Origin: a virus
Length of the DNA stretch: 20,140 nucleotides
IMG/VR virus record: IMGVR_UViG_3300020442_000889
Span: 1 to 20,140 of that record
Reading direction: 5' to 3' (one strand)
A program made the position numbers and the translations under genes. Below are positions 6,000-19,640 of the stretch, piece by piece (position 1 is the first letter of the stretch; each line of letters begins with the position of its first letter). The notes under the pieces were generated by a model. The model worked only from the letters and a program-made list of their open reading frames with translations, was not told the DNA's origin and searched no databases.

Positions 6000-6025
6000 G
6001 GAGAGGTATCCGTTTTCATGTGTAC

Positions 6026-6054
6026 ATCATAACACAGAAACCCAGGCTTGACAA
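6026..6054 (-). promoter_or_regulatory. Sigma-70 promoter for gp55
   Basis: On the minus strand: TTGTCA (6049-6054), a 17-base spacer, then TATGAT (6026-6031) preceded by TGT, an extended -10. The predicted transcription start is about 6019, roughly 20 bases before the gp55 ATG. This host-type promoter fits early or middle expression of the late sigma factor. Its -35 shares bases with the plus-strand promoter at 6048-6076. Confidence 0.75.
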
Positions 6055-6076
6055 CACCTCTGAATCAGTGTACAAT
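6048..6076 (+). promoter_or_regulatory. Divergent sigma-70 promoter reading into antisense of the gene at 6111-6524
   Basis: On the plus strand: a perfect TTGACA (6048-6053), a 17-base spacer (6054-6070), then TACAAT (6071-6076). The predicted start is near 6083. No plausible plus-strand gene follows: GGAGG at 6085-6089 has no start codon at suitable spacing. The transcript would run antisense to the 3' end of the 137-residue gene and towards uvsW. It shares its -35 bases with the gp55 promoter, so occupancy of the two should be mutually exclusive. Confidence 0.6.
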
Positions 6077-6110
6077 AACCTTGTGGAGGTTCAAAAGCAA
6101 TATAGCTTTA

Positions 6111-6524
6111 TTACTTAGAGTCTTTATTGAATAACTTCTCTAGAGAATCTCTAGCATCATCTATCTTAGAAACATATCCAACGTTCCTTTCAGGGTTGAC
6201 TTTGTTTGTAGAGATGATTGACTTCTGAGAAGCATATGCTTTTTCAAAACATTCTTCATAGAACTCAATTGCTCCTTCACTGAGTTCTGTAATAGTAAGA
6301 ATATTATGTCTTTCGATAACGAAACAATCTTCACCAGAATATTTCATCCACATATTAGGAATAACAATATTTGCTAATACTCCTGGTTGTGGGTTGATAG
6401 TATCTTCTCTGATAGTAATCGCATTAGATACCAAGAGAACATCATCATCAGGAATCCACATTACCTGAGCAAAAAGTTCTTCTCCTGATACCAGTTTGAT
6501 TGCTGCGTGAAAATCGTCTCCCAT
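6111..6524 (-). CDS. Sm/LSm-like small protein between uvsW and gp55
   Basis: 137 residues. The N-terminal half reads like an Sm fold. AAIKLVSGEELFAQV (7-21), followed by DDDVLLVSNAITI (26-38), resembles the Sm1 motif, a bent beta-sheet with a turn after 'L.sGeel.g.v'. FVIERHNILTITEL (68-81) resembles the Sm2 signature IRGnnIxxI. Between them is a loop of about 30 residues. The C-terminal 50 residues are charged and probably helical. Sm-fold proteins usually bind RNA as rings (LSm, Hfq), but some are only structural, and no RNA-binding residues can be assigned here. The ATG lies three bases after the uvsW stop with only a weak upstream ribosome site, so it probably depends on uvsW transcription. 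The gene call is firm; the fold is an inference. Confidence 0.8.
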   Translation of the reverse strand: MGDDFHAAIKLVSGEELFAQVMWIPDDDVLLVSNAITIREDTINPQPGVLANIVIPNMWMKYSGEDCFVIERHNILTITELSEGAIEFYEECFEKAYASQKSIISTNKVNPERNVGYVSKIDDARDSLEKLFNKDSK

Positions 6525-6527
6525 GTG

Positions 6528-7991
6528 TTATCTGAAATCGATGTTTATAATTTGATAATCAAAGTTTTCTTCATTGTAAATTTTTATTCTCTCAACGAGA
6601 TGATTCAAGGTATAGTTCTTTTTACCATTTTTGTTGGTAACATCATCAGACACATCATACAAAGTTGCAAGATTTTTTGCCTGACCTTTTCTAAGAACTC
6701 TTCCAATCGATTGGAGATTTCTAATTCTTGATTTAGAAGGACTAGAAAATATTACATTGTGAAGGTTTTTAATATTGATTCCAGTAGAGAAGGTTCCATA
6801 AGATGCTACAATAATTGCATTATCTTCAGACTCTGTAATTTTTCTTACATCTTCTCTCTCATCAGTATTCACTCCACCATGTATAAAGAATACTTTTCTG
6901 TCCTGAGTCTTACTATTATTTAGTAGGTCATAGATAACCTGACCATGGGTAGAAACCCTACTATAAAGAATCAAAGTATTACCTTTCAGATCCAATGCCA
7001 GGTTACTAATGAATTTGTTTCTACGATCATTGTTGATAAGAAACTGAATTTCATCCTCATAAGTTTCAAACTTCTGATACTCATGCTTTAGAATCAATAC
7101 TTTGATTTCAAACTTGGAAAGATATCCTTGATCAATAAGTTCTTCTGTGTTGACAATTTTATCTGCTGGACCAAACAAACCTTCCAATACCCACTTATGT
7201 GTCTTGGTTCCATCTAGTGTTCCAGTAAAACCAATTCTATATTTTGCATTATGGCACTTAGTCATGATACCAGTCAGTGACTTAGCTTTGAACTGGTGTG
7301 CTTCATCACCAATCACTGTAGTAAACTCATCAAAATATTTCTTTGGCATCTTGTAAATAGATTGCCAGGTTGTAATGGTTACATCTTTATCAGATACTTT
7401 TTCATATCCTGCATAGATCTTATGACAGTGTGCTTCAGCGTCCCAACCATAGTCAATAAAATCTTTATACATCTGCTCTACAAGAGATGTAGTAGGAACA
7501 ACAATAAGAATCTTTTCTCCCTTAGCAACATGATATCTAACTACAGAGTAAATCATCATTGATTTACCTGATGCTGTTGGTGAGATAATTAGTTTGCGAT
7601 TATTTTTGAGTGCTTGATATACTGCCTTGACTTGATAGTCTCTAGGTTTGAAAGAAGTAATAGATGTCATGAAGGACTTGACTCCTTCCATAGTCACCAT
7701 AGGATTTGATTCCAACACGTCACCGTAGTATTTGTTGGATTCAAATTTCATTTTATATTCATGTTCTCCACACCATGTAATCAATCTATCGAGAAGACCA
7801 CAATAGATCTCCCCTGTGTGTGGTGAAAACAAACGTATCTTGCCATCCCAATGCTTACTTCTATAGGATGGCATGAACGCTGCTTCAGGAACATCAAATG
7901 TAAATTGATCTGATAGTTCGTATTTGATGTGTGGTTCGCATTCTATTTTCAGATATACTTCATTCTTTTTTGAAATCAATAGTTCGCTCAT
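6528..7991 (-). CDS. uvsW: UvsW superfamily 2 helicase
   Basis: 487 residues. An ATP-dependent SF2 DNA/RNA helicase that in T4 unwinds R-loops and recombination branches, helping the switch from origin-dependent to recombination-dependent replication. Residues 1-110 form the small N-terminal domain typical of UvsW, with SKHWDGKIRLF at 45-55. Helicase motifs follow in order: Q-like RDYQ at 117-120, Walker A SPTASGKS at 137-144, VVPTTSLVEQ at 164-173, DEAH at 229-232, FTGTL at 255-259, and arginine-finger motif QSIGRVLRKG at 427-436. The set is complete. It follows uvsY with a one-base gap and precedes the LSm-like gene. In T4 uvsW is a late gene; the nearest recognised promoter here is the late-type one before the gp3-like gene at 9001-9008. 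Confidence 0.96.
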   Translation of the reverse strand: MSELLISKKNEVYLKIECEPHIKYELSDQFTFDVPEAAFMPSYRSKHWDGKIRLFSPHTGEIYCGLLDRLITWCGEHEYKMKFESNKYYGDVLESNPMVTMEGVKSFMTSITSFKPRDYQVKAVYQALKNNRKLIISPTASGKSMMIYSVVRYHVAKGEKILIVVPTTSLVEQMYKDFIDYGWDAEAHCHKIYAGYEKVSDKDVTITTWQSIYKMPKKYFDEFTTVIGDEAHQFKAKSLTGIMTKCHNAKYRIGFTGTLDGTKTHKWVLEGLFGPADKIVNTEELIDQGYLSKFEIKVLILKHEYQKFETYEDEIQFLINNDRRNKFISNLALDLKGNTLILYSRVSTHGQVIYDLLNNSKTQDRKVFFIHGGVNTDEREDVRKITESEDNAIIVASYGTFSTGINIKNLHNVIFSSPSKSRIRNLQSIGRVLRKGQAKNLATLYDVSDDVTNKNGKKNYTLNHLVERIKIYNEENFDYQIINIDFR

Positions 7992-17993: not shown

Positions 17994-19640
17994 TCACTGG
18001 TAGTCCCACATGTAACTCATATCACCATATTCATCTGTATGCCATCTGTCACCATTAGCATCGACAAAACTAGTATCCTCTAATCCATCTGAAATAAATC
18101 CAAATGGTGCCATGTCTTGCTCTAATTGATTCTTCTGCTCATCATAAAGACGTTTCCTGACATCTTGGTCAGTCATCTCTTTGAAGTAGTCCTGAGCAAT
18201 CAACCAAGCATAGATAACCAGACACATAGCAAGGTCATCATTACATCCTTCTTCTGCCTCAAAGGATTGGTGTTTCTGAATGAATGTGGTCAACTCACTG
18301 ATAATCTCATAGTCCTTGAAGAGTAACTTATCATCTTCAATAACTGTCTTGAGGTTTGAACATCCAACCTTCTTGACTGCTTTTGACATCTTGACACCCA
18401 ACTGTGTCTTCTTACCTGAGAATCCTTGTCCAACAATCTGTCCTGCTCTACCACGCATGGAGCACATCAGAACGTTCTCATATTCAAGATCAAAGTTTAG
18501 AATAGAAGCAACCTGATCTCCAATGTCATTTACCTCACATAGGATATATGCATTGTTGTATGCCTTTGCCATGTCATGAATGACACTTGGGAACAGCATT
18601 GGTTTGATCTCATTGTTTCTATATTTTGCAACAACCTGATGAGGAAACGTTGTAATGTCAAATACTACAAATGCTGAGTAGTCAATACCGACTCCTCTAG
18701 CAACGTCCACAGTCATAATATAGTCATGATCCTTTTCAGGATTATTGTAAATATCTAATCCTTTGTTAGACTTGATTGGATCTTCATAAACCAAACTTCT
18801 AAGTTTCGATGGATTGATTAGTGTGTCAACAGATCCAAGGAACTCACACTCAAACTCAACTCGGAACTGCTGTTCAGAAGTGTTAGCAATAGTCTGTGCT
18901 TTCCATGCAGCATCCCTACCAGGAACTTCTGACCAGTGAACCTCAGTTGCTACATATTCATTCTTACCTCGTTCTGCATCATGCCAGTAACGATAAAAGT
19001 GGTTCATACCATGGGGGGTAGAAACCATGATGACCTTGGTAGATTTACCAGAGGAGATCGTAGGATATACAGACGCGAAGAACTGATCTGCGATGTGGTT
19101 TGGGATAAACGCAAATTCGTCCAAGAAAATAATATTGAACGACATACCACGAACAGCAGATGCTGATGTAGATGCAGCAATGATCTTAGAACCATTCTCC
19201 AGTTCCATAGATCCTTTGTTGTAGACTACAATACCCTGCTGCATCCATTTAGGAAGGTTCTCATATGCAAGTTGTAGTCTTCCTAAGAGATCTCTTGCAG
19301 TAGATGCTTTGTTTGCAAGAATGCCAATATTTACATTATCGTTGAAGATTAGATAATGCAACAAGTAAGACACACACGTTGTAGACTTACCAGTCTGTCG
19401 TGGCATCTTACAGATGTTGAATCTATTTTCATGAAAGTTCCTTACCAGTTTTTCCTGGAAAGGATACATTTTGAATGGGACGAGACCTTCATCAAGAGAA
19501 ACAATTTGAATATAGTTTCTAGCGAAGTAAACTGGATCGTCTTTACATTTGATAAACTCTGCAACGTTCTCTTCAGTCCACTGAATAGCAACGTTTGCTT
19601 TCTTTAGATTAGGATTACCAAGATATACACCATCAGCCAT
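17994..19640 (-). CDS. 17: Terminase large subunit gp17
   Basis: 548 residues; the DNA-packaging motor ATPase with headful nuclease. The N-terminal ATPase has Walker A RQTGKST (81-87), Walker B IIFLDE (170-175) and coupling motif STPHG (207-211). The C-terminal RNase H-like nuclease begins with MTVDVARG (acidic D312) and continues through CEVNDIGD and GCNDDLAM, which carry the other metal-binding acids. T4 gp17 has 610 residues. The ATG lies six bases after the stop of the 54-residue gene, and GGTGAT is the only ribosome-site-like sequence. The small subunit gp16 was not recognised nearby. Confidence 0.97.
   Translation of the reverse strand: MADGVYLGNPNLKKANVAIQWTEENVAEFIKCKDDPVYFARNYIQIVSLDEGLVPFKMYPFQEKLVRNFHENRFNICKMPRQTGKSTTCVSYLLHYLIFNDNVNIGILANKASTARDLLGRLQLAYENLPKWMQQGIVVYNKGSMELENGSKIIAASTSASAVRGMSFNIIFLDEFAFIPNHIADQFFASVYPTISSGKSTKVIMVSTPHGMNHFYRYWHDAERGKNEYVATEVHWSEVPGRDAAWKAQTIANTSEQQFRVEFECEFLGSVDTLINPSKLRSLVYEDPIKSNKGLDIYNNPEKDHDYIMTVDVARGVGIDYSAFVVFDITTFPHQVVAKYRNNEIKPMLFPSVIHDMAKAYNNAYILCEVNDIGDQVASILNFDLEYENVLMCSMRGRAGQIVGQGFSGKKTQLGVKMSKAVKKVGCSNLKTVIEDDKLLFKDYEIISELTTFIQKHQSFEAEEGCNDDLAMCLVIYAWLIAQDYFKEMTDQDVRKRLYDEQKNQLEQDMAPFGFISDGLEDTSFVDANGDRWHTDEYGDMSYMWDYQ

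Follow-up and report, generated by a model that had tools for sequence, protein, structure and literature searches.

The gp55 locus and its promoter pair

The window, by which we mean the entire 20,140-nucleotide stretch analysed here, is a fragment of a marine T4-like cyanophage whose closest relative is Synechococcus phage S-BM3 (94% over 999 bp). The locus considered below comprises uvsW, the gene for an Sm-like protein, an intergenic gap and the late sigma factor gene gp55 (Table 1); this order is preserved in annotated phages, and in the syntenic S-BM3 record uvsW and uvsY come next. Profile matches bore out both the identity of gp55 and the LSm-like nature of the 137-residue product beside it, as proposed in the initial annotation. 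The label 'methylamine utilization', by which cyanophage genes of the latter kind go, looks misleading in light of the Pfam assignment of the copy at this locus.

Table 1. Coordinates of the genes and regulatory features at the gp55 locus of the window
Feature	Coordinates	Strand	Basis
gp55, T4-type late sigma factor, 157 aa	5526..5999	minus	phrog_234, E 5e-67
Gap between gp55 and the Sm-like gene	6000-6110		Two back-to-back sigma-70-type promoters inside
gp55 promoter, -10 TATGAT with TG before it; expected start near 6019	6026..6031	minus	Promoter scan
gp55 promoter, -35 TTGTCA, common to the antisense promoter	6049..6054	minus	Promoter scan; shared thus in 47/77
Antisense promoter, -35 TTGACA	6048..6053	plus	Sequence and promoter scan; invariant in 77/77 relatives
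Antisense promoter, -10 TACAAT, 17 bp from the -35	6071..6076	plus	TANNAT in 77/77, spacing always 17 bp
Expected +1 (G) of the antisense RNA	6083	plus	Inferred from the -10 position, 7 nt after it; G inside the conserved TGT
Operator-like dyad AACCT-TGTGG-AGGTT, centred on the expected start	6077..6091		Arm pairing, joint arm changes, variant matching
Sm-like protein, 137 aa ('methylamine utilization', T4-GC 139)	6111..6524	minus	PF16243, E 2e-7; phrog_471
uvsW helicase	6528..7991	minus	Synteny with annotated S-BM3 and others

The gap holds two promoters on one TTGTCAA, whose coordinates and spacings had been read correctly to the base. The one pointing rightward (TTGACA-17-TACAAT) scores 11/12 and is the top match of the window in the promoter scan, with a -35 near TTGACA and a -10 near TATAAT at a spacing within the 16-18 bp of sigma-70 promoters; the one directed into gp55 (TTGTCA-17-TATGAT) scores 10/12 and has a TG preceding its -10. 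An RNA from the former would first traverse the 3' end of the Sm-like gene, with uvsW further along the same path. The clearest intrinsic terminator of the window, a strong one, lies at 9581-9562 on the minus strand (GAGGGTCC-GAAA-GGACCCTC followed by seven T).

The earlier view that such a pair is unlikely to arise by chance holds for the antisense promoter: in Syn9 (177 kb), TTGACA followed after 16-18 bp by a near-TATAAT hexamer occurs 21 times against 1.4 expected under an order-2 Markov model, and by the same figures the chance of such a promoter in a given 100-bp gap is below 1e-3. The shared hexamer itself, on the other hand, comes cheaply, as TTGACAA/TTGTCAA is approximately its own reverse complement and one good -35 thus provides a 5/6 match to a -35 on the opposite strand for free. 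Given this near-palindromic nature of TTGWCAA, and its shared use in only 47 of the 77 relatives described below, the common -35 is less remarkable than it looked; what is informative about the pair is that a second -10 lies exactly 17 bp away and is conserved. Both -10 regions (6020-6033 and 6069-6080) also carry GTGTACA, followed after 0-3 more bases by ATAAC; the copies of this short direct repeat read GTGTACATCATAAC and GTGTACAATAAC and are absent from most relatives.

Conservation of the antisense promoter and mobility of the gp55 promoter

Our comparison covered 77 distinct gp55-upstream regions, namely those of the window, S-BM3, DSL-LC03, S-SSM5, S-RSM4 and Syn9, together with viral contigs. 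On the antisense strand every one of them has TTGACA, exactly 17 bp and TANNAT, with a mean identity across relatives of 100% in the -35, 86% in the -10 and 47% in the spacer; the -35 carries 1.77 bits of information per base, the 15 bases that follow the -10 carry 1.12 and the spacer carries 0.44. The element is likewise found in S-SM1, S-RIM8, ACG-2014d, S-RIM2, S-CAM8, P-SSM2, P-SSM7, P-RSM6, S-RIM44, S-H38 and S-SCSM2R, with S-H34 having a weak form only (TTAACA-18-TACACT), and among strong promoters that are both intergenic and antisense it alone is common to the six complete genomes that we scanned. In P-SSM7 the annotated 33-codon PSSM7_137 (1122-1220 of the stretch examined) overlies the promoter and is unlikely to be a real gene. 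Still more distant T4-like phages, namely HTVC008M, DLP6, S-CRM01 and phiM7, have the antisense promoter too, with a different dyad in the same position after it.

Loss of the plus-strand promoter from a relative that keeps the gp55 promoter, the pattern that would speak against the proposal of the initial annotation, was not found among the 77 regions. Its suggestion that the two -10 elements be aligned across relatives had a divided outcome, with the antisense -10 kept as TANNAT in 77/77 and the gp55-directed promoter being less fixed. The gp55 promoter uses the common TTGTCAA in 47 of the 77, so that a single hexamer serves both strands as in a bidirectional promoter, whereas in the other 30 it has a different -35 offset by -10 to +27 bp. 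This constancy of the one and variability of the other imply that the gp55 promoter has moved around the antisense one. Judging by these alignments, it is the antisense promoter and not the common hexamer that is the conserved unit, and this promoter is almost certainly under selection.

These positions bear directly on an alternative in which the antisense promoter makes no useful RNA and simply occupies DNA needed by the gp55 promoter, so that the late sigma factor is held back until a regulator shuts the antisense promoter off. The two -35s lie no more than 27 bp apart in all 77 cyanophage loci and overlap in 47, making simultaneous polymerase binding unlikely; competition at strong bidirectional promoters has been shown in E. 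coli (PMC12825309); and neither an ORF nor a terminator follows the antisense promoter. Against this, the antisense promoter persists where the gp55 -35 is about 63 (HTVC008M), 70 (phiM7) and 174 bp (S-CRM01) away, implying that exclusion cannot be its general function, and the same module drives ordinary genes elsewhere. We thus regard a purely steric switch as a doubtful, if reasonable, account. The notion of a switch built on one shared -35 is borne out only in part: the hexamer is common to both promoters in the 47 loci but not in the 30 with another -35, and in the three distant phages the separation is too great for exclusion. The antisense promoter is likely to compete with that of gp55 only in genomes in which they overlap.

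The start-site dyad and further copies of the module

Directly after the antisense -10 stands a dyad that reads roughly AACYNTGTNRGGGTT across relatives. Its arms pair at 4.13 of 5 positions, as against 2.89 +/- 0.09 in shuffled sequences, and vary jointly between lineages, with a TGT in the loop conserved. The corresponding dyads of the distant phages are AGGCA-TG-TGCCT in HTVC008M, TCAGG-TGTCG-CCTGA in DLP6, CAGGA-ATG-TCCTG in phiM7 and CTTAG-TGTCG-CTAAG in the divergent freshwater S-CRM01; a perfect 5-bp dyad thus follows the -10 in four distant phages, with a chance of about 1.5% each. A dyad after every strong promoter of Syn9 was also considered and rejected, as the feature is not general.

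Copies of the entire module, i.e., promoter and dyad, are few: a profile search of Syn9 recovered one further copy, making two in all, with nothing else above threshold, and pattern scans gave one to three copies per genome. Among 80 exact-match loci in viral contigs, 62 are at gp55 and 18 elsewhere. Protein genes begin a short way downstream of 13 of these 18 and of the copies in reference genomes, namely genes for CP12, a CpeT-like protein, a RusA/PDDEXK-like nuclease, a SegE-like GIY-YIG protein and a 67-aa protein (phrog_718), with the module 24-72 nt ahead of the start codon. This placement is the best evidence for the module being a working promoter. The 67-aa family is repeatedly preceded by it (5 loci) and is a candidate host-takeover protein or regulator.

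The placement also bears on the possibility that the conserved sequence serves the uvsW-Sm-like mRNA as a 3' or terminator hairpin, with a chance promoter likeness on the opposite strand. The dyad does lie just past the Sm-like stop codon, and the sense-strand hairpin is followed by AUUNUA. However, the -35, 17-bp spacer, -10 and dyad occur in promoter orientation before unrelated genes with no uvsW operon upstream, the invariant TTGACA at exactly 17 bp is left unexplained and the wobble pairs described below are on the other strand; hence, we hold this to be very improbable.

Within a genome, the dyads of the different copies resemble each other: their identity is 0.90 against 0.76 when permuted (15 genomes), with a p-value of 5e-5 that is optimistic, as it ignores phylogeny and relatives are not independent. 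In contrast, the spacers of same-genome copies are effectively unrelated (identity 0.41 vs 0.37, p=0.06). Particular variants are doubled in this way in ACG-2014d (AACAATGTCAGATRT), S-SCSM2R (TACTCTGTGGAGTTT) and S-H38 (AACACTGTAGGGGTT). Matching dyads with non-matching spacers argue against recent duplication and in favor of one trans-acting reader per phage; a dyad at a fixed position, with variants that match within genomes, is what an operator-regulated set of promoters displays. The genomes of DLP6 and HTVC008M yielded no second occurrence of their respective dyads. In Sinorhizobium phage phiM7 there are two near-identical copies of about 50 bp (at 19586 and 159351) with promoter, spacer and dyad, and here the near-identity of the spacer points to the second copy being a duplication.

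Situated over the expected +1, the dyad would be the place where a repressor or other regulator sits, and we see an even chance that it is a protein operator. The pairing itself offers a counterpoint: when G-U pairs are allowed on the plus strand it rises up to 4.82/5, with almost no gain on the other strand, a bias that would be more in keeping with a hairpin than with an operator and counts against the operator reading. The dyad might then work, within or close to the nascent transcript, as a hairpin of RNA or single-stranded DNA instead of binding a protein, which would also suit a stem that varies across lineages around a conserved TGT. Yet, with the expected +1 at the G of that central TGT, the left arm is probably untranscribed, falling at about -6 to -2 and outside the expected RNA; a +1 G would likewise impose a central TGT; and the agreement of variants between promoters of one genome is what an operator predicts. 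On balance, a hairpin function is unlikely.

Probable antisense transcription, a proposed mechanism and comparison with known systems

Downstream of the antisense start there is no conserved plus-strand ORF in the 77 loci: the longest ORF starting within 120 nt has a median length of 14 codons, and ORFs of at least 40 codons occur at only five loci. A hidden small protein gene was rejected on this ground, and a known structured RNA family was likewise rejected, there being no Rfam match. Thus, the description of the right-hand promoter as having no gene before it, and as possibly giving rise to an antisense RNA that annotation has missed, is sustained, nothing conserved being encoded on the plus strand. 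The exception is the gp55-locus copy of phiM7, where gp36, annotated as a small gene, follows on the same strand. Intrinsic-terminator-like sites within 300 nt are seen at just 8 of the 77 loci with no consistent terminator, so the antisense RNA would be left with no defined 3' end, a point against the explanation that we favor below.

A promoter devoid of a coding sequence also recalls T4, where oriF and oriG combine a promoter with an A+T-rich unwinding element and their R-loops are unwound by UvsW (PMC3016281). The antisense transcript could by analogy form an R-loop that primes leading-strand synthesis, and the conserved non-coding promoter at this locus points into uvsW itself. However, across the six genomes neither a GC-skew change nor an A+T peak marks the site, the cumulative skew minimum is 15-25 kb distant in 6/6, and elsewhere the module drives genes; a T4-type R-loop origin, with its unwinding element and strand-composition shift, was hence rejected as unsupported by composition. 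Since T4 oriA and oriC likewise lack a skew shift, we consider an origin of this kind improbable rather than disproved.

Taken together, the comparative evidence indicates that the antisense site is a real host-type (sigma-70/SigA) promoter facing against the whole local gene direction. It is very likely transcribed, and it is probably a regulated, unannotated source of non-coding antisense transcription. We propose that it acts as follows. Ahead of late transcription, host RNA polymerase would initiate near 6083 and run rightward; the resulting non-coding RNA would be antisense to the Sm-like gene at its 3' end and perhaps to uvsW. A putative phage-encoded dimeric DNA-binding protein on the start-site dyad would control this promoter and those of the CP12, CpeT and nuclease genes. 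In the cyanophages only, firing of the antisense promoter would hold gp55 down, since a single polymerase footprint takes in the gp55 promoter, and silencing of the antisense promoter would free gp55. We assign this full scenario, with the host-type antisense promoter, the operator-like dyad and the gp55 effect, variants included, a probability of about 0.5; the alternatives overlap with it, and the confidences do not sum to one.

More tentatively, one uncharacterised regulator might have its operator both on the gp55-locus antisense promoter and on the host-takeover promoters (CP12, CpeT, nucleases). If so, a single protein would coordinate takeover of carbon metabolism and photosynthesis with the switch to late transcription, in T4-like phages of cyanobacteria and of some other bacteria. 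To our knowledge, cyanomyoviruses lack MotA, AsiA and Alt, and the question at issue is how they time the early, middle and late phases of transcription. Here, we have a family-wide element at the late sigma factor gene, belonging to a small promoter set with an operator-like dyad of its own, that predicts a specific RNA, a DNA-binding activity and target genes.

Several known systems resemble parts of this picture. In prokaryotic bidirectional promoters, a divergent sigma-70 pair arises from one symmetric element and the polymerases are mutually exclusive (PMC12825309, PMC10268837); the likeness is in the two divergent promoters on such an element. However, those share the -10, whereas the gp55 locus shares the -35, and that in some relatives only, and the conserved half of the pair is the antisense promoter, which has a start-site dyad of its own. 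The T4 origins oriF and oriG resemble the proposed reading in having a pre-late promoter whose function calls for no protein product, and oriF is near uvsW/uvsY (PMC3016281); they differ in being MotA-dependent middle promoters with an A+T-rich unwinding element, the gp55 locus having neither A+T peak nor skew shift. The antisense RNA CfrI of cyanophage S-PM2, directed against psbA and a gene for a homing endonuclease (PMC2984593, PMC5931967), offers a precedent for a non-coding antisense RNA in a T4-like cyanophage, though at a different place from gp55/uvsW, where the element is family-wide and the RNA predicted only. In the parts of the cyanophage review and transcriptome literature available to us, CfrI at psbA is the only antisense RNA described and the gp55-locus site goes unmentioned; the Syn9 transcriptome of Doron et al. 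(2016) lies outside this comparison.

That study (ISME J) reportedly describes an early regulatory element and host-like middle promoters in Syn9, which would be akin to the present module in being cyanophage-wide elements and host-like promoters. With only two copies in Syn9, the module is too rare to be a general early-gene element.
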